Source of the DNA: an uncultured SAR116 cluster alpha proteobacterium
Lineage (GTDB): Bacteria > Pseudomonadota > Alphaproteobacteria > Puniceispirillales > Marisalimonadaceae
DNA: 64,000 nt
Assembly (NCBI GenBank): GCA_902619485.1
Contig: CACNEF010000001.1
Coordinates: 62,001-126,000 of the forward strand
Reading direction: 5' to 3'
The notes under the pieces were generated by a model. It was not told where the DNA came from and did not search any database. It saw nothing but the letters and a program-made list of their open reading frames with translations. Shown here piece after piece: positions 7,711-49,977 of this stretch. Position 1 is the first letter of the stretch. The number at the start of each line of letters is the position of its first letter. The translations under genes and the position numbers were made by a program.

Positions 7711-8487
7711 TTAAATTATTAAGTTACCACGAACACTTTTTTTTACAATTTCCCATTCAGGATTTTTTGGTTGTATTGCTTTACTCTTTAGCTTTTCATG
7801 AAGACTTATTCTGTAAGTTTTGTCTTTAACTACCTTGTCAATCCACTCTGGTAACCTGTTTTCTTCAATACCTAAACTATAAATTAAATATGATAATGCT
7901 TTTTTTTCACTAGTACTTTTTAATGTCATATTCTTAGCACTAATTTCGGATAACCTTTTAGGTTTATTGTCGTTAAATGGGAAAACACCTGCAATTGAGA
8001 TATATCCATATACTTGTTTTGTATATTCAAAATCTTTTATTTTAACAGTGTCTAACTTTAATTTCACAAAACTGTATGCAACTCCTAACGCTTCACTTAA
8101 ATGCATAATTTCTAATTGTTCTTCATTAAGCCATAATACATTAAGATCTACTTCAGTTCCTTTGCTTGGCCATTGGGTGGCTGGCATTGATCCATAGGCT
8201 GACAAAGACGCTGCATAAACTATATCAGAATCTATTAAAATAGCAGGCGTGACACAAATATCCTGATTTAATGAAAATTTTCTTTTTAATTGATATGGTG
8301 ATCTATTAGAGCCAACTGATAATATTGGTATTCTATTATTAAGGTTATCACAGATGCCTTTAATAAATTCACCCTTATAAAATGAAAAAGAATAATTGGG
8401 TGCAAAATATGGATAGTTTACAGCTCTATCAAATGACGAAAAATTAGGAAATAATTCTTTAGTAATTTTTTGATCATCATGTCTCAT
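7711..8487 (-). CDS. Conserved protein of unknown function, possible gamma-glutamylcyclotransferase-like fold
   Basis: I do not recognise this 258-residue protein with certainty. It has no signal peptide or membrane segment. About residue 55 it reads ILSVGSNRSPYQLKRKF, then YAASLSAYGSMPATQWPSKGTEVDLNVLWLNEEQL. The VGSN segment and the following beta-rich pattern recall the YGSN substrate loop of the GGCT/AIG2-like fold, but the catalytic glutamate cannot be identified by eye. It lies 14 bp downstream of argC on the same strand, so the two are probably co-transcribed. It is a real gene on codon use and length; the function is open. Confidence 0.8.
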   Translation of the reverse strand: MRHDDQKITKELFPNFSSFDRAVNYPYFAPNYSFSFYKGEFIKGICDNLNNRIPILSVGSNRSPYQLKRKFSLNQDICVTPAILIDSDIVYAASLSAYGSMPATQWPSKGTEVDLNVLWLNEEQLEIMHLSEALGVAYSFVKLKLDTVKIKDFEYTKQVYGYISIAGVFPFNDNKPKRLSEISAKNMTLKSTSEKKALSYLIYSLGIEENRLPEWIDKVVKDKTYRISLHEKLKSKAIQPKNPEWEIVKKSVRGNLII

Positions 8488-8501
8488 ATCAAATAATCTT
8501 T

Positions 8502-9446
8502 TTATAAACCTAAAGTTTCATTATACCCTAGAGCAATATTCATAGACTGTATAGCAGCGCCAGAAGCGCCTTTTCCTAAGTTATCTAATCTAGAAGAAAT
8601 AATTAATTGGTCATTGTCATCATTCCCAAAAACACTTATATCTAGACAGTTTGTTCCAACTAAGTTATCTGGCCTAAAATATCCTTTGTCGCTTATACCT
8701 TCATCTTTTTTTAAAACTTTAATAAAGTTAGCTCCTGAGTAAAATTCTTCCATTAGGGATTGGATCTTTTCAGTATCTATTTTATCATTAAACCAAGAAA
8801 AATGTAATGGTATAGTAACAATCATACCTTGAATGAAATTACCAACCGATGGACTAAAAATTGGTGTTCGCTCTAACTTGTTATGATAAATTATTTCTGG
8901 TAAATGTTTGTGATTTAATTTTAGTCCATAATTAAAAAAAGGTTCATTATTTGTTTCCTTAAAATAATTAATCATCGATTTTCCGCCACCTGAATAACCA
9001 CTAACAGCATTTATGACAATTGGAATATTTTTGCTTAAAATACCATTTGATATAAGTGGTTTTAGAATTACATTAGCCCCAGTAGAATAACATCCAGGTG
9101 ATGCAATGCGTTTTGAATTTTCAAGACTTTTTCTGTAATTCTCTCCTAGCTCTGGAAGTCCATATGACCAATTTGGGTTAGTTCTATGAGCTGTAGAAGC
9201 ATCAATAATTATTGGAGATTTATCTCCAAGTTCATCAGCTATTTGAACTGTTTCAATAGATATTTCATCAGGTAAGCACAAAAATGTTACATCCGATTTT
9301 GCTAACATTTCTTTTTTATAAGAAATATCTTTTCTTTTAGATTGATCAACTGACATTATGTTAATATTTGGATGCTTACTTAACTTTTCATGAACTTGCA
9401 AACCTGTAGTGCCAGTTTCTCCATCAATAAAAATATCCTTTTTCAT
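8502..9446 (-). CDS. argC: N-acetyl-gamma-glutamyl-phosphate reductase (ArgC, short type)
   Basis: This enzyme reduces N-acetylglutamyl phosphate to its semialdehyde with NADPH, the third step of arginine synthesis. The N-terminal IDGETGTTGLQVHEKL is the nucleotide-binding loop; SPGCYSTGAN carries the catalytic cysteine; NAVSGYSGGGKSM and HKHLPEI complete the family pattern. At 314 residues it belongs to the short ArgC type (type 2) rather than the roughly 345-residue type 1. The downstream unknown gene is 14 bp away. The 105 bp upstream is a divergent promoter region shared with pmbA. Confidence 0.93.
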   Translation of the reverse strand: MKKDIFIDGETGTTGLQVHEKLSKHPNINIMSVDQSKRKDISYKKEMLAKSDVTFLCLPDEISIETVQIADELGDKSPIIIDASTAHRTNPNWSYGLPELGENYRKSLENSKRIASPGCYSTGANVILKPLISNGILSKNIPIVINAVSGYSGGGKSMINYFKETNNEPFFNYGLKLNHKHLPEIIYHNKLERTPIFSPSVGNFIQGMIVTIPLHFSWFNDKIDTEKIQSLMEEFYSGANFIKVLKKDEGISDKGYFRPDNLVGTNCLDISVFGNDDNDQLIISSRLDNLGKGASGAAIQSMNIALGYNETLGL

Positions 9447-9551
9447 ATTTACCTATTATATACTTATAAAGTTGCAACAATTGAGACAGTATATTAATAA
9501 AACATATATAATTCTTTTGTAAATTCTCTTTTTCATAGGAACAATATTTAA

Positions 9552-10910
9552 ATGTCTACAAAAAAACTTAATGATAAGGATATTATGAGCCTTCTTATTG
9601 ACACAGCTGTTGCAAATGGCGCAACTAGTGCGGACTGTGTTTTATCAAGAAGTAGAGGTGTTTCGATTACCAGAAGGTTAGGTAAAGATGAAAACATTCA
9701 AAGGTATGAAGACTTTGATACCGGTTTAAGAGTATTTGTTGGTAATAAAATTTCATCAGTTTCAACTAATGAAAATTCTGAAGAAGCTCTGAGAGAGGTT
9801 GGAAAAAGAGCTGTGGAAATGGCTAAAATTGCACCAGAGGATGAATATAGCTTTATAGCAAGCAAAGAGTTGCTTCAAAACTTCCCAATACAAGATAGTG
9901 TTTTTATTGATAGCTATGATTCTGTAGAACCAAGTGTTGATGTAATAAGAGATAGGGCATCAGAAGTTGAAGATATAGCTTTAAGTATAAAAGGTATTTC
10001 TAATAGTGACGGTGCAGATTCGTCATGGGGCGAAGGAGAAACACTCTTAATGACATCTAATGGTTTTTTCGGTTCATCAAAAAAATCTAATCACAGCGTG
10101 TCAGTAGTTGTTATTGCTGAAAAAAATGGAAAAATGGAGAGAGACTATGATTACTCTTCAAAAGTATATGGTGAGGATCTAAAAGACGGTGAAAAAATTG
10201 GTCGTGAAGCTGCAATGAAAACATTGGCCAGGATTGGTGCTAAAAAACCAGTTACTGGACAATATCCAGTTATTTTCGACCCAAGGGTATCTAGGTCAAT
10301 AGCAAGTCACTTTGCATCAGCTATAAATGGATCTTCAATAGCACGTAAAACTAGTTTTTTAAAAGATTCTTTAAATGATAAAATTGCAAATGAATCTATT
10401 ACTTTAATTGATGATCCTTTTCTAAAAAGAGGTTTAGGTTCAAGATTATTTGATGCAGAAGGTCTAGGTACTTCCAAGCATGTTTTAATTAAGGATGGAG
10501 TGCTTGAAAATTGGTTATTAGATTTGTCATCCTCAAGACAATTAAATTTATTACCAACTGCAAATGCAAAAAGAGGTATTAGCGGTCCTCCTGCACCAGG
10601 TATAACTAATCTGCTTCTATTACCCGGTGAAGCTTCACCTGAAAGTATTATTTCTAGTATAAGTAATGGCTTTTATGTAACTGATATGATTGGTAGCAGT
10701 GTATCTATGGTTACCGGTGATTATAGTCGTGGTGCTAGTGGTTTTTGGATAAAGAATGGTGAATTATCAACTCCCATTACAGAAGCAACTATTGCAGGTA
10801 ATCTTAAAGATATGTTTATGACACTCAAACCTGCTAACGACCTTGATTTTTCACATTCTATAAATTGTCCAACTCTATTAATAGAGGATATGACAATTGC
10901 AGGTAATTAA
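9552..10910 (+). CDS. pmbA: TldD/PmbA family metalloprotease subunit (PmbA/TldE)
   Basis: This is one of the two subunits of the TldD/TldE metalloprotease, a cytosolic peptidase that processes modified peptides and antitoxins. The N-terminal half has SRSRGVSITRR and the FDTGLRVFVGNKISS strand. The C-terminal half has DPRVSRSIASHFASAINGSS, the GxGSRLFDAEG segment, and GDYSRGASGFWIKNGEL, all PmbA-like. The HExxxH zinc motif of the TldD subunit is absent, which distinguishes it as PmbA/TldE. No tldD is in the window. The phosphatase gene follows immediately after the stop codon. Confidence 0.9.
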   Translation: MSTKKLNDKDIMSLLIDTAVANGATSADCVLSRSRGVSITRRLGKDENIQRYEDFDTGLRVFVGNKISSVSTNENSEEALREVGKRAVEMAKIAPEDEYSFIASKELLQNFPIQDSVFIDSYDSVEPSVDVIRDRASEVEDIALSIKGISNSDGADSSWGEGETLLMTSNGFFGSSKKSNHSVSVVVIAEKNGKMERDYDYSSKVYGEDLKDGEKIGREAAMKTLARIGAKKPVTGQYPVIFDPRVSRSIASHFASAINGSSIARKTSFLKDSLNDKIANESITLIDDPFLKRGLGSRLFDAEGLGTSKHVLIKDGVLENWLLDLSSSRQLNLLPTANAKRGISGPPAPGITNLLLLPGEASPESIISSISNGFYVTDMIGSSVSMVTGDYSRGASGFWIKNGELSTPITEATIAGNLKDMFMTLKPANDLDFSHSINCPTLLIEDMTIAGN

Positions 10911-44320: not shown

Positions 44321-44782
44321 TTATATTTTACTAATTTTTTGCTCTTCTAAAACATAATTTTTAAAGTTTTCAAAAAATGTTTTAGAAAGCTTTTTTGCGG
44401 TACTCAAAATCAAACGACTCCCAAGTTGAGCTATTTTACCTTTAACTTCGCTTTTAGCGATATATTTTAATATAGTGTCGTTATCATCTTCAACTAACTC
44501 AACATCTGCGCCGCCTTTAGCAAAACCTGCAACACCTCCGTCACCTTCTCCACTGAGAGAATATTTGGTAGGGCCAGAAGATAGATCTAATGTAACCTTT
44601 CCTCTAAATTTTGCTTTTATGGGACCAATTTTCAAGACTACTTTTGCTGCCAACGTTCCGTCTTCAGCCTCTAATAATTCTTCACATCCTGGAATACATT
44701 TTTGTAATACCTCTAGATTGTTTAAACAACTGTAAACATATTCTAACTTTCCTGGTATCCTGACCTCATCATTAAGTTCCAT
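44321..44782 (-). CDS. CoxG-like SRPBCC-domain protein
   Basis: A 153-residue protein of the START/SRPBCC superfamily, similar to CO dehydrogenase subunit G: MELNDEVRIPGKLEYVYSCLNNLEVLQKCIPGCEEL and IGPIKAKFRGKVTLDL are typical CoxG strands, and KYIAKSEVKGKIAQLGSRLI completes the fold. CoxG is thought to help anchor or mature molybdo-hydroxylases; no coxLMS is in the window. Its start is only 36 bp from the left tRNA-derived boundary of the genomic island, so its upstream region was altered by that insertion. Confidence 0.85.
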   Translation of the reverse strand: MELNDEVRIPGKLEYVYSCLNNLEVLQKCIPGCEELLEAEDGTLAAKVVLKIGPIKAKFRGKVTLDLSSGPTKYSLSGEGDGGVAGFAKGGADVELVEDDNDTILKYIAKSEVKGKIAQLGSRLILSTAKKLSKTFFENFKNYVLEEQKISKI

Positions 44783-44817
44783 TTTAAAACTTCTATCTAC
44801 ATTTGATTAAGAATTGT

Positions 44818-44868
44818 GGCAGGGATAACCTTAATTGAACCGGGAGCCTTGCGGCACTAGTTTTTGAG
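44818..44868 (-). repeat. Degraded tRNA-Leu 3' fragment (putative att site)
   Basis: On the plus strand the words GAACCGGGA, GCCTTGCGGCACT and GTTTTTGAG occur in the same order as in the tRNA-Leu at 49202. There are six mismatches and one gap. Four of the mismatches hit the T-arm, so this copy could not fold. The 5' half of a tRNA is absent. The similarity stops right after the anticodon loop. This is a leftover of the tRNA end displaced when the island inserted. Confidence 0.82.
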
Positions 44869-45447
44869 TTACTTGATGACAATTATGCATAATCAACATA
44901 GTAAAGTAATTATAGGTATTCTCCTAATTCTAGATTAATTGTTATTCTGTATTGTATACACAGTCAAGCCAGTTTAGTTGATTTTTGTACCATTTTTCGG
45001 ACCATATATTTATCAGTCATGGAGAATAAGTTGACGGTACTCGTCATTATAGCTTTAGCGATATTGATATTTACTTTGTATTTTCTATTTAATTGGTCTA
45101 TGAGCATTGGACTGTCACGTTATTTTGTTGATAAATAAGTGTCAACATACGAATGACACACCTAGATTTAACATTAAGAGAATTTCAAATATCCAATAAG
45201 TCTCTTGATTCAAGCTGTAAAGAAATTGGAGTATAATTCTATAATTTAGTTTGTATTTTCGATATATAAGTAAATTCGATTTATGCTGTTTTATTAGACA
45301 TTAATTAAAATGATTAACTGATTTAGCTTATTTTTTTAGCATCCTGAGCTTTCAGTAAAAAAAAAGCCGATTAGAAATTGTATTATATAACGCAAATAAT
45401 AATTTCCTGTAAATATTCAACTTAACGCAAACATAGGAGTATGTAAT
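44869..45447. other. Left part of island without large genes
   Basis: This 579-bp stretch contains the 39-residue ORF at 45019 and otherwise only short open frames (20 to 27 codons). No integrase remnant is recognised. The 100 bases before the solute-binding protein gene should carry its promoter. An AGGAG ribosome site lies at 45435-45439, eight bases before that gene. The stretch is AT-rich, unlike the cargo genes. Confidence 0.5.
45019..45138 (+). CDS. 39-residue hydrophobic small protein (not in ORF track)
   Basis: The frame reads MENKLTVLVIIALAILIFTLYFLF, then NWSMSIGLSRYFVDK. It is one transmembrane helix with a short basic tail. The pattern of helix followed by a FVDK-like tail reminds me of the tiny alphaproteobacterial membrane proteins often mislabelled glyceraldehyde-3-phosphate dehydrogenase, whose C-terminus reads like LARKFVDLIEWLAF; this copy would then be shortened. 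No Shine-Dalgarno is evident. It is inside the island. The gene may be real, a remnant, or chance. Confidence 0.35.
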   Translation: MENKLTVLVIIALAILIFTLYFLFNWSMSIGLSRYFVDK

Positions 45448-46302
45448 ATGCAAACAACTAAATTTTCACGCCGTCAAGTTTTAGTCACTGCTGCCTCGGG
45501 TTTGGCAGTATCAATGTTAGCACCTGGTTTAGCTCGCGCAGCAAGTAAAACTTTATCTGATGTGAAAGCGTCGGGAGTATTGCAAATCGGATGTGAAGCA
45601 ACGTATCCGCCTTTTACTTTTCGGGACGCGGGTAAGATAGTGGGCTATGATGTCGATTTAGCAGCTTTGATGTGTTCTTCATTAGGGGTTAAGCCAGAAT
45701 TTATTGACACGCAGTGGTCAGGTGTAATTCCAGCGCTTTATGCTGGAAGGTTCGATGTGATTATGTCGTCTATGAGTTACCGTAAAGAGCGTTTAAAAAA
45801 GGTTGCTTTTTCTATTCCGTATGCTGAAGCAAGCCAAGCTATGCTTATTCGAGCAGATGATGCCTCAAAAATCATGTCGGTGAAAGATCTTTCAGGCAAA
45901 GTACTTGGAGTTAAACTTGGATCACCTGGTGAAATGATGAAGCCGGCTCTTGAAAAAGAAATCGTAGCCGCCAAAGGAAAGGGTTTTTCTGATGTAAAAA
46001 TTTATGATGATCATCCCTCTGCATACCTTGCGCTCAGTCAAGGAACAGTTGATGGTGTGCTTAACACTCTGCCAACATTAGGAAAAGTGATGAAGGACCG
46101 TCCAGGTGCATATGCATTAGTACGCCCAGTAGGAAAGTTGAATTGGGCAGGAATAGCAGCGCGTAAAGAAGATACAGAAATTGTCAAATGGATGGATGCT
46201 GAACTCACGAGGCTGAAAGATAGCGGAGAGATTTACGCATTGCAAGAAAAGTGGTTTGGGTTCAAAATGCAACTGTCAGACACAATTCCTTCGTTTGCGT
46301 GA
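45448..46302 (+). CDS. Family 3 (polar amino acid-type) solute-binding protein, Tat-exported
   Basis: This periplasmic receptor feeds the adjacent ABC permease. The signal has a twin-arginine motif, FSRRQVL, followed by a hydrophobic stretch and GLARA, so it is exported folded by Tat, which is less common than Sec for this family. The mature part shows GCEATYPPFTFRDAGKIVGYDVDLAALM, the family 3 ligand-binding N-lobe, and later FDVIMSSMSYRKERL. The conserved ligand arginine (SMSYRKER region) and aspartate are consistent with an amino-acid-like or zwitterionic ligand. Strong AGGAG ribosome site. First gene of the island operon. Confidence 0.9.
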   Translation: MQTTKFSRRQVLVTAASGLAVSMLAPGLARAASKTLSDVKASGVLQIGCEATYPPFTFRDAGKIVGYDVDLAALMCSSLGVKPEFIDTQWSGVIPALYAGRFDVIMSSMSYRKERLKKVAFSIPYAEASQAMLIRADDASKIMSVKDLSGKVLGVKLGSPGEMMKPALEKEIVAAKGKGFSDVKIYDDHPSAYLALSQGTVDGVLNTLPTLGKVMKDRPGAYALVRPVGKLNWAGIAARKEDTEIVKWMDAELTRLKDSGEIYALQEKWFGFKMQLSDTIPSFA

Positions 46303-46317
46303 TAGCTAGTTTAACTT

Positions 46318-46351
46318 ACCTTGTCCCTTTAATAGCTTAGGGGGACAAGGT
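46318..46351 (+). promoter_or_regulatory. Intercistronic hairpin between binding protein and permease
   Basis: ACCTTGTCCC and GGGACAAGGT are perfectly complementary over ten bases with a 14-base loop, between the solute-binding protein stop and the permease start. No U-tract follows, so it is not a standard terminator. Such hairpins often protect the upstream mRNA and give more binding protein than permease, which fits transporter stoichiometry. It is also possible that it acts as a weak terminator. Confidence 0.7.
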
Positions 46352-46366
46352 TAAAAAGGTGATTAT

Positions 46367-47020
46367 ATGACTATTGATTGGGGCATTATATTTAAAAGCA
46401 TTCCACTCCTTGGTCATGGTGTAGTAGTAACGTTGCAAGTCTCAGCACTAGCATCTGTCTTAGGTTTGATGCTTGGTGTAGTTTTGGGTTTGTGTTCACT
46501 GTCGCATAGCAGAGCCCTTCGTTGGATTGTTGCTGGTTATGTTGATTTTATACGCGGTACACCGTTGCTGATCCAAATTTTTCTAGTTTTTTTTGCACTC
46601 CCTGCGCTTGGTGTTCGATTTGATGAATTTTGGGCCGGTGTAGTCGCACTTTCTTTGAATTCCGCAGCATTCGTAGCTGAAGTTGTGCGAGGTGGCGTTG
46701 GGTCTATTGAGCGAGGCCAGTCCGAAGCAGCAACTGCCATAGGCATGCGACATAGGCAAATTCTAATATATATTTTACTTCCACAAGCTTATAGACAAAT
46801 GGTTCCGCCACTGACAAACGAGCTAATAAGCTTAGTAAAAAATTCATCTTTACTCTCGGTAATATCAGTATATGAACTAACAAGAGCAGGTCAGGCAATA
46901 ATCTCAGTGCACTTTGTGCCATTTGAGATTTATACTCTGCTAGCGGTGTATTATTATGTTCTTATTAAAGTATTAAGCTGGTTGTCAGGTCGACTTGAGC
47001 GGAGGCTTCCAACATGGTAA
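46367..47020 (+). CDS. Polar amino acid-type ABC transporter permease
   Basis: A 217-residue inner-membrane permease of the HisM/GlnP type, with five or so hydrophobic segments. The coupling EAA-like loop is [29 protein letters not shown], as in this family, and [19 protein letters not shown] is the usual N-terminal signature. A single permease gene suggests a homodimer. It overlaps the ATPase gene by 7 bp. Arginines are coded mainly by CGN, unlike in neighbouring chromosome genes. Confidence 0.92.
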
Positions 47021-47760
47021 CTCCGGTAATCCAGGTGCAAGATCTTAGCAAAAGCTTTGGAGATAATTCTGTGTTACGTCGTGTATCGATGGATGTAGCT
47101 ACTGGTGAAACTGTTGTAATTATTGGAGCATCTGGTTCAGGTAAGACCACCTTTCTACGCTGCCTAAATAGATTGGAGGAGCCTGGCGCTGGTACTATAC
47201 GGTTAGATGGAAACCCAATGGTGAATAGTGGTTCTGAAAAACTTATCGCAGACCAACGCAGTCAATTTGGCTTTGTTTTCCAAAGGTTCAATCTATTTCC
47301 TCATTTTTCTGCCCTAGATAATGTAGCTATCGGGCCTGAAAAGGTTCGTGGGATGTCTAAGTCGGATGCAAGAGCTCTCGCCGCAGCTGAACTTAAACGG
47401 GTTCATATGTCTGATCACGTAATGAAGCGTCCAGTTCAGCTATCCGGTGGGCAACAGCAAAGAGTAGCAATAGCACGAGCACTAGCAATGAAGCCTAGAG
47501 TTATGCTGTTTGATGAACCAACTTCGGCCCTGGATCCTGAATTGGTTCAAGAGGTGCTAGATGTGATGAAGGAATTAGCAAACGGAGGTATGACTATGGT
47601 AGTAGTTACCCATGAAATGAATTTTGCGCGTGAAGTTGCAGACCGCGTAATTTATATGGAAAATGGTAGGATTGCTGAGGAGGGTCCACCAGAAATTTTG
47701 TTCAGAGAACCAAAATCGCCTGGTGCACAGCGGTTTCTTAGGCATTTGAACCATGAGTGA
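47014..47760 (+). CDS. Polar amino acid-type ABC transporter ATP-binding protein
   Basis: A cytosolic ATPase of the GlnQ/HisP type (248 residues). It has Walker [11 protein letters not shown]-loop [15 protein letters not shown], signature [15 protein letters not shown], Walker [13 protein letters not shown] and the switch histidine in [16 protein letters not shown]. It energises the permease just upstream, whose last bases it overlaps. Its own end overlaps the amidohydrolase start by 8 bp, so transport and hydrolysis are coupled at translation. Confidence 0.94.
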
Positions 47761-49126
47761 GGCTCTTGCAACACCAGATATGATCGTAGCAGGAGGCACT
47801 CTGCTTACCTCAGATCCCAGTAGACCTTACATCCAAGAAGGTTGGGTAGTTATAGATAACGGCCGAATACAGTCAATTCAAGACAAAAAGCCGGACAGGT
47901 TTCACCCGGCAACAAAAGTAATAGATGCGAAGGGGTTTGTCATTACACCTGGGTTTGTTAATGTCCATACCCATGCTATCCTTAGTATGGTTCGCGGAGT
48001 GGCAGAAGATATGGGGTTTGCGCCGGCTTATACCATTGGTGTGCCTCATGGACATGATCCAAGCCCAGAAGAGGCATATGCTATGGCTCAGCTGGGCGGT
48101 TTAGAAGCACTCCTCTTCGGATCAACTATAATCAACGATACCTTCACACACCAGAATATTTCACTTCCAGCGATGGCTGAAACAGGGATCAGAGCATGGG
48201 GCTGTGGAAGAATCCACGATGTTGATTTTACACGCGTACATCTCGGTGAGTGGACCTATAACACAGAAATAGGAGAACATACTCTCAGGGAAGCCTCGGA
48301 ACTGATTGAAGAATACCACGATCCAATTAGTCTACGCACTGGGGTGGTTTTAGCACCTCACGCGCCAGATACTTGTTCGCCAGATCTATTGCGCCAAGTT
48401 CGAAATATGCGTGACCACAAAGGATTGCGGATCAACACTCATGTTTCACAAAGTCAAGTTGAAGTTGATTTCATTCGAGAACGTGACAAGATGAGTCCAC
48501 CTGAATTATTGGAAGATGTCGGACTGCTAGATAATCGTTTAATTGGTGCGCATTGTATACACGTATCGAAAACAGATATTGAGAGACTTGGACGCGCAGG
48601 CGCACATCTGGCTCATATAGCTAAGGGCAATCAAACACACGGTCAGGTGGCGCCGACCAGTGCTCTGCGTCGCGCGGGTATGAATTTGGCACTTTCAACC
48701 GACAACATGCATGCTGATATGGTGGAATTGATGAGATGGGCTTTAGCTTCAGGTCGTTTACAAGATGGTAAGATTACCAATGATTGGCAGCCTGCCAATG
48801 TATTTGAGGCTGCTACAATTGGAGGTGCGCGGGCGCTTGGTCTGGAAGACGAGGTTGGTTCTTTAACAGTTGGTAAACGCGCTGATTTAGTAATGTTTGA
48901 CTTTAGGCGCCCACATTTGAGACCGCTTACAAACGTGTTGGGAACACTTGTACACACAGGACAGGGTCGAGACGTAGATACAGTCATTGTGGAGGGCGAG
49001 GTTGTTGTTTCTGGTGGAGAGCCACTACGAGTGGACAAATTAGCTGTTCTTGAAGCTGCAGAAACTGCAGCCGCTGCGCTATGGCGCCGAGCGCGATCAG
49101 AAGAGTTAGCGTTTTCAAAAAGTTAA
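47753..49126 (+). CDS. Amidohydrolase/deaminase of the TRZ/ATZ-MtaD type
   Basis: A cytosolic metal-dependent hydrolase of 457 residues. Metal ligands are H72 and H74 ([11 protein letters not shown]), H230 (RINTHVSQ), H267 ([10 protein letters not shown]) and D317 ([10 protein letters not shown]), the TIM-barrel pattern of the TRZ/ATZ and S-adenosylhomocysteine/guanine deaminase group. The position after an amino acid-type importer suggests it opens or deaminates an imported nitrogen compound, possibly a cyclic amidine or N-heterocycle. The substrate cannot be named. It has high GC and CGN arginine codons. The tRNA-Leu follows 75 bp later. Confidence 0.9.
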
Positions 49127-49201
49127 ATTTTAAGAATGTTGGTTGAATTCAAAACTACGAATAATCCTCTAAACACCCTACCTACATTTATTTATGAAGT
49201 T

Positions 49202-49286
49202 TGGTAGGGATACCCGGAATCGAACCGGGAAGCCTTGCGGCACTGGTTTTTGAGACCAGCGTGTTTACCTATTTCACCATATCCCC
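49202..49286 (-). tRNA. tRNA-Leu (anticodon CAA)
   Basis: The minus strand folds as a full cloverleaf with a long variable arm. Acceptor GGGGATA pairs with TATCCCT (one G-U at the first pair), the anticodon stem CTGGT/ACCAG frames a CTCAAAA loop with anticodon CAA, the variable arm is TGCCGCAAGGCTT, and the T-arm CCCGG-TTCGATT-CCGGG is perfect. ACCA is encoded at the 3' end. It reads UUG leucine codons. It marks the right end of the genomic island. Confidence 0.95.
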
Positions 49287-49377: not shown

Positions 49378-49977
49378 ATGATATTCTTAAGTATAAAAAC
49401 TAAAATTGATCTTTTAATTGAAAAAGCAAAATATAATGCGAAAAAACCCTTAGCCGAAAAAATTCTTGGCTTTATTTCTTCAATAGAATCAATAATTTTT
49501 CCTATTCCAGTTGATCCATTTCTTGCAGGATTGACTTTAGCAGCCCCAAAAAAAGCATTCAAATTTGGATTATTTTGTACAATTGGCTCAGTTATTGGAG
49601 GTGTTATAGGATGGTTACTTGGTTATTTTATCGGACCTTCAATTGAAAATATATTATTGAACATTCCTTGGTTTACCGAAGAAAAATTTATGTCAGTAAA
49701 GTCAGCCTATAATGAAAATGGTATGCTTATAATTTTTTTAGGAGCATTTACACCTCTTCCATACAAAATTATTACCATTACAAGTGGTATAGCTGGAATA
49801 AACATCATTGGGTTTATATTAATGTCTCTTGTAGGTAGGGGTATGAGATTTTTTATGGTTGCATATTTAACAAAATTTTTTGGGATGCCTGCTTTATTAT
49901 TTTTACAGAGACATTTTCTTTTATCTTCTAGTATATTAGGAATAGCAATTATTGTATTTTCGATTTATGTTTTTTAG
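49378..49977 (+). CDS. YqaA-like SNARE-associated (DedA-related) membrane protein
   Basis: A 199-residue protein with four or five hydrophobic segments. The pattern ESIIFPIPVDPFLAGLTLAAPKKAFKFGLFCTIGSVIGGVIGWLLGYFIG followed by FLGAFTPLPYKIITITSGI is typical of YqaA-type relatives of the DedA/SNARE-associated family. These affect membrane homeostasis or lipid transport; the precise role is open. It is followed at once by dsbB and coq7, with stops and starts touching, so the three form one transcript. Confidence 0.82.
   Translation: MIFLSIKTKIDLLIEKAKYNAKKPLAEKILGFISSIESIIFPIPVDPFLAGLTLAAPKKAFKFGLFCTIGSVIGGVIGWLLGYFIGPSIENILLNIPWFTEEKFMSVKSAYNENGMLIIFLGAFTPLPYKIITITSGIAGINIIGFILMSLVGRGMRFFMVAYLTKFFGMPALLFLQRHFLLSSSILGIAIIVFSIYVF

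Follow-up and report, generated by a model that had tools for sequence, protein, structure and literature searches.

An integrase-less metabolic cassette at the tRNA-Leu gene of a SAR116 genome, probably a helper-moved unit of a stacking family

Background

Islands built from units in tandem at one RNA gene have been described in several bacterial groups. Fifteen of the ssrA islands of Dehalococcoides lack an integration module and have been suggested to be cis-mobilizable and moved by accretion (PMC3146451). In Alteromonas, GI5 occupies a tRNA-Leu site whose 3' repeat is 52 nt long (PMC4119200), the Actinomarinales have tRNA cassette islands with ATP-binding cassette (ABC) transporter genes beside two such tRNAs (PMC7771536), and fGI-2 of the Methylophilaceae is also a tRNA cassette island (PMC10872708). 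The islands of HIMB59, by comparison, have been ascribed to homologous recombination (PMC10734472). Here we analyse a 64-kb stretch (64,000 nucleotides, the window) from an uncultured SAR116 cluster alphaproteobacterium. We propose that positions 44817-49254 are a complete cassette without an integrase, inserted by a tyrosine recombinase into the 3' half of tRNA-Leu(CAA), and that it is a helper-moved unit of a family that stacks at this site. We put the probability of this reading at roughly 85%.

The Dehalococcoides ssrA islands are the closest precedent, and the window unit may act like a cis- or trans-mobilizable cassette in an additive tRNA island. Both systems have tandem units at one RNA gene, direct repeats of its 3' end, some units without an integration module, and metabolic cargo (PMC3146451). 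They differ in that Dehalococcoides uses a serine recombinase (DsiB), the tmRNA T-loop and 20-bp repeats, whereas SAR116 has a tyrosine integrase, the tRNA-Leu anticodon loop and a 53-bp core. As in the additive flexible islands of Alteromonas, Actinomarinales and Methylophilaceae, which have a tRNA target, variable cassettes and direct repeats, the presence, number and content of cassettes vary at one tRNA among relatives. Unlike in those islands, SAR116 cassettes with and without an integrase are shown to share ends outside the tRNA repeat, and both the host group and the cargo are different. Tycheposons, compared by description only (PMC10872708), resemble the SAR116 system in their tyrosine recombinase, tRNA target, nutrient cargo and streamlined marine hosts, and in the RepA-like ATPase that the integrase-bearing SAR116 elements also carry. 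A recombinase lies at the tRNA in two of these elements, from genomes G023 and G016 (G numbers denote the genomes compared, which include the congeneric SAR116 set, G000 being the window genome), whereas the window cassette has neither a recombinase nor a replication gene. Units flanked by attachment (att) sites without their own recombinase, beside units with one, also recall cis-mobilizable elements (CIMEs) and clusters of attC sites lacking integron integrases (CALINs). Unlike for CIMEs, no conjugative partner was found for the SAR116 cassettes, and no attC sites or integron integrase were seen, although no dedicated search was made; each repeat here consists of the 3' half of tRNA-Leu, accompanied by conserved ends.

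The kind of system is thus already known, while the cassette family, its integrase and the SAR116 setting appear to be new in the literature searched. In that literature, which leaves most subscription journals uncovered, we found no previous account of SAR116 genomic islands, and a SAR116 phylogenomics paper mentions none (PMC8547437). The locus bears on how streamlined ocean bacteria with few mobile elements exchange useful genes. It offers a concrete case, with defined ends, a candidate integrase, empty and occupied sites and demonstrable spread of a cassette without its own integrase, and it makes helper-driven cassette exchange in SAR116 testable.

Results and discussion

The insertion and its empty sites

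The original prediction described an island without an integrase, bounded by the tRNA-Leu(CAA) gene and a truncated direct copy of its 3' part. The tRNA is the only one in the window, and the copy is real: 44 of 52 nucleotides are identical (about 85%), against the 45 first counted, with the start at 44817. The similarity breaks off in the anticodon loop, as had been noted, at tRNA position 33. In the other direction the match does not stop at the 3' end of the tRNA but runs on for another 24 bp, so that it spans 77 bp in all, with 83% identity. A search of the window's own genome gave the match an E of 1.4e-15, and its alignment score is 87, whereas none of 300 shuffles scored above 34, so that chance is excluded as the source of the similarity. 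Rfam found nothing in the window beyond the tRNA, and no match at the displaced copy.

Close relatives of the cassette are in single-cell genomes of the SAR116 cluster. An uninterrupted junction of coxG, tRNA-Leu and yqaA, which the original prediction had named as the decisive comparison, is present in four congeneric genomes, with the tRNA alone between the two genes and a spacing of 210 bp in G036 and G013, 209 bp in G018 and 216 bp in G030; in the window the spacing is 4596 bp. Between coxG and the displaced copy, the window sequence matches that of the empty site in G036. This is the expected arrangement, since an element entering the 3' half of the tRNA would push the host 3' half away. 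In other congeners the locus holds the same 4.3-kb cassette, or a tandem row of different ones with a copy of the direct repeat between neighbours.

The composition of the interval is also foreign. The four cassette genes have a guanine plus cytosine (GC) content of 42-48% and a third-position value (GC3) of 0.30-0.36; for the genes on either side the values are 27-38% and 0.16-0.26. CGN codons dominate among the arginine codons of all four (53 CGN against 24 AGR in total), as in only one small flanking gene. The contrast in GC and arginine codons seen at first reading therefore holds, and the relatives do not all carry four native-looking genes at this place. Integration is supported by the empty sites, by the match of the host flank with the empty-site flank and by the foreign GC and codon use. 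The features of the locus are collected in Table 1.

Table 1. Features of the window at and around the tRNA-Leu site
Feature	Position	Strand	Interpretation	Evidence
coxG	44321-44782	-	Host flank; orphaned last gene of CO dehydrogenase operon	PF06240; operon present in relatives
24 bp past tRNA 3' end, host side	44793-44816	.	Equals empty-site flank of G036; also like element right end	
Displaced distal att copy, tRNA-Leu 3' half	44817-44868	-	44/52 identical to tRNA/att core	
Conserved left element end	44869-44930	.	Imperfect inverted repeat TTACTTGA...TCAAGTAA	Alignment; genome search 91%, E 1e-19
Family-3 solute-binding protein	45448-46302	+	Amino-acid-type ABC transporter	PF00497 6e-40; NCBIfam below equivalog cut-offs
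ABC permease	46367-47020	+	Amino-acid type	PF00528; TIGR01726 above cut-off
ABC transporter ATPase	47014-47760	+	GlnQ/HisP type	PF00005 1e-35
TRZ/ATZ-type amidohydrolase	47753-49126	+		PF01979 1.6e-48; top PDB matches are atrazine chlorohydrolase (4v1x) and deaminases
Conserved right element end	49145-49201	.	Within cassette, adjoining tRNA 3' end	Aligns with right ends of different-cargo cassettes
Cassette-proximal att core, tRNA positions 33-85	49202-49254	-	Would be regenerated by inserted element	Block common to att copies in relatives
Intact tRNA-Leu(CAA)	49202-49286	-	Integration target, 3' end toward cassette	ARAGORN, Rfam RF00005
yqaA-like VTT-domain membrane protein	49378-49977	+	Host flank	PF09335

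A family of cassettes stacked at one tRNA

At least one displaced copy is found in 19 genomes and at least two in eight of these, all in one orientation. Nearly all end at the same base of the anticodon loop and are followed, whatever the cargo, by a conserved element end of about 65 bp that had escaped notice earlier, as had the second conserved end on the tRNA side, which comes in two subtypes. Left ends of this one family occur whether or not the cassette has an integrase; the window copy of its inverted repeat is degenerate (TTACTTGA...TAAAGTAA). The first displaced copy in G006 is damaged. In all eight multi-copy arrays the tRNA sequence is better preserved in the adjoining copy than in the outermost one (p 0.008 by sign test), which fits stacking, with new cassettes entering at the tRNA and older ones pushed outward. 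Matches resembling the att sequence lie, within the genus, almost exclusively at the tRNA-Leu locus; those elsewhere are weak. The first reading as a genomic island thus stands as far as integration is concerned, but the window holds one cassette of a multi-cassette hotspot rather than a single remnant, and the integrase persists in relatives.

In the window interval there is no trace of an integrase, as predicted, and the assembled 78% of the window genome has one PF00589 match only, far from the site. Among the relatives a tyrosine integrase gene lies by the tRNA, its 3' end about 134 bp away. G023 and G016 have it intact (370 residues), G006 has a truncated form, and in G025 a 75-residue remnant is left. 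A hidden Markov model of the integrase, run over all loci, recovered this tRNA-side set, one further remnant in G025 and one weak match, and no other relative of the 370-residue protein was found in the genus. The intact integrase elements also encode AAA_25 ATPase and/or HTH_36-type proteins, and defence-like genes occur in G023 and G006. G006 and G016 each have the window cassette together with an integrase-bearing element, either within one array or adjoining it; in G016 a contig break lies between the two. Compared with phages, satellite phages included, the integrase gave distant matches only, all under 60% identity and the best at 29%, and so no source phage. Phage structural or packaging genes are absent from the window cassette, which has only the ABC genes and the amidohydrolase; the integrase-bearing elements were scanned for selected proteins only.

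Spread between hosts and the competing explanations

The window cassette is present in ten genomes at 92-99% DNA identity. Seven of the eight att-bounded copies are 4282-4308 bp long and one is 4405 bp. It is proximal to the tRNA in six genomes (G000, G022, G002, G024, G038, G021), while in four (G003, G006, G016, G020) later arrivals have pushed it outward. Between G000 and G021 the synonymous p-distance is 0.67 for yqaA and 0.11-0.17 for the cassette genes; between G000 and G020 it is 0.71 for coxG and 0.13-0.22 for the cassette. A single host clade of carriers is rejected by the approximately unbiased test (p-AU 4e-51), and G021 is nested among non-carriers. Since the copies are far more alike than the neighbouring genes of their hosts, the cassette has spread between species after losing, or without, an integrase of its own. 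Cross-contamination among the single-cell genomes is unlikely, the copies differing by 1-8% per gene and sitting in different contexts. In G000, G022 and G003 the divergence of the cassette agrees with that of the hosts, so that here the insertion was probably inherited from an ancestor. The proposal of an old event kept by selection consequently holds in part: the insertion is probably older than the divergence of the window species from G022 and G003, and purifying selection acts on the genes, but the cassette has also moved recently between much more distant lineages.

We suggest the following mechanism. The crossover would take place in the anticodon loop of tRNA-Leu(CAA), and the cassette would bring its own tRNA 3' half, leaving the tRNA intact and displacing the host copy to 44.8 kb. 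It is one unit of a family that shares the att core and conserved ends and stacks at the SAR116 tRNA-Leu site; the empty sites, the boundaries, the common ends, the presence of an integrase in relatives and the horizontal spread are all shown directly by the sequences. Cassettes without an integrase are probably moved by integrase-bearing elements, either in trans or by joint excision with a neighbour (accretion). The window cassette, having kept both att ends and having no recombinase gene, has the makeup of a non-autonomous element, and indirectly, from the common ends and the spread without an integrase, we infer that the integrase of relatives, supplied by co-resident or transient elements, acts on its ends. 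Several points weigh against this reading. Viral contigs searched with exact left-end and att-junction patterns, the integrase and the amidohydrolase yielded no relatives and no packaged or free form, nor was a circular form, an excision event or activity of the integrase seen. G021 lacks the left att. In the closest pair the inner left 400 bp of the cassette are no better kept than the host flank (86% against 87%, G022); with identities so alike, the breakpoint is visible in distant pairs only.

The explanation that survives best after this one is that an ordinary integrase-bearing element delivered the cassette and that its integrase was deleted in place, leaving a fixed, immobile and vertically inherited remnant. 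The decay of integrases at this site in G006 and twice in G025, and the agreement of cassette and host divergence in G000, G022 and G003, are what it would predict. We nevertheless consider it unlikely. The same integrase-less structure is shared by ten genomes that are not one host clade, in distant pairs the cassettes are far more alike than the host genes, and the 76 bp between the last cassette gene and the tRNA in the window hold no remnant. This shared structure, the scattered carriers and the similarity of the copies indicate that the cassette was already without its integrase when it moved. Spread by homologous recombination in the flanking core genes, as proposed for the HIMB59 islands (PMC10734472), has a precedent there in streamlined marine Alphaproteobacteria and would account for the chromosomal position being the same in all carriers. 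It is much less probable still, because in G021 yqaA, 250 bp away, is 72-74% identical while the cassette is 94-96% identical, positions within arrays vary, and every cassette is bounded by the tRNA-derived repeat and conserved ends; homologous recombination between att repeats could nonetheless play a part. That the 44.8-kb sequence is an unrelated conserved feature, a regulatory RNA or a decayed tRNA duplicate, beside four native genes is refuted by the four empty sites and is also at odds with the foreign GC, the lack of an Rfam match at the copy and the multiple copies in relatives that track cassette boundaries.

Cargo

The predicted function of the four genes is the uptake and hydrolysis of an organic nitrogen compound. 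The same genes, in the same order, occur in marine Rhodobacteraceae contigs (L147, L148, L156) at 74-87% protein identity, and this group is a plausible donor. Non-synonymous distances of the amidohydrolase are about one tenth of the synonymous ones, which is consistent with purifying selection on the cassette genes. Where the alignment shows HMAE in atrazine chlorohydrolase, the amidohydrolase reads HVSQ, as do its two nearest Rhodobacteraceae homologues, a difference that may reflect an unusual chemistry.

The cargo of other integrase-less cassettes at the site varies. In G016 and G033 an amidase accompanies a branched-chain-type ABC transporter; G020, G039 and G004 have hydantoinase A/B genes, to which G020 adds genes for a PnrA-like binding protein and a 2OG-Fe(II) oxygenase; further cassettes have single oxygenases or TPR-methyltransferases. 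We had considered the hydantoinase genes and those for proteins of 288 and 356 residues to be two separate cassettes, and dropped this as G020 has no att between them. Several cassettes pair uptake with C-N bond hydrolysis, a post hoc pattern without statistics that suggests organic nitrogen scavenging. We tentatively raise the possibility, to which we give somewhat less than even odds, that the tRNA-Leu dock is an integron-like exchange site of SAR116, where the integrase from a few cells circulates many non-autonomous cassettes. The metabolic cassettes being largely an uptake system with a C-N bond hydrolase, the site would then amount to a shared organic-nitrogen toolkit.

Further observations on the locus and its flanks

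One locus of G025 (L090, oriented 8401-9672) has a 1.3-kb att-bounded mini-cassette with one gene and an integrase remnant at its right end. A 51% homologue of the integrase (G078:C23:209-1384) lies beside the 3' half of a different tRNA, and the integrase family appears from this placement to have changed target. In another genus of the family, G044 (L235) has a similar att core and left end (84% over 110 bp) near an aconitase gene, which suggests that the hotspot extends beyond the genus.

Many congeners (G007, G010, G012, G020, G021, G023) have a CO dehydrogenase operon between coxG and the tRNA, and in G007 (L081) and G023 (L087) the cox operon is separated from the tRNA-proximal part of the site by a block of about 11 kb that includes a gene for the large subunit of glutamate synthase. 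The operon is gone from the window lineage, where coxG is left alone; coxL turned up in 8 of 25 genomes of the genus but not in G000, which is 78% complete. Host and element sides agree over the 24 bp past the tRNA 3' end (44793-44816 and 49178-49201) in the cox-less clade, whereas in genomes with the cox operon they do not. Chance was dropped as the explanation of this similarity, since these 24 bp recur both at the right ends of elements and in empty sites next to coxG, and they may be the scar of an earlier element in the cox-less clade, whose loss took the cox operon. The orphan coxG may be decaying; that of G024 (G024:C3:71384-71800) holds several stop codons.

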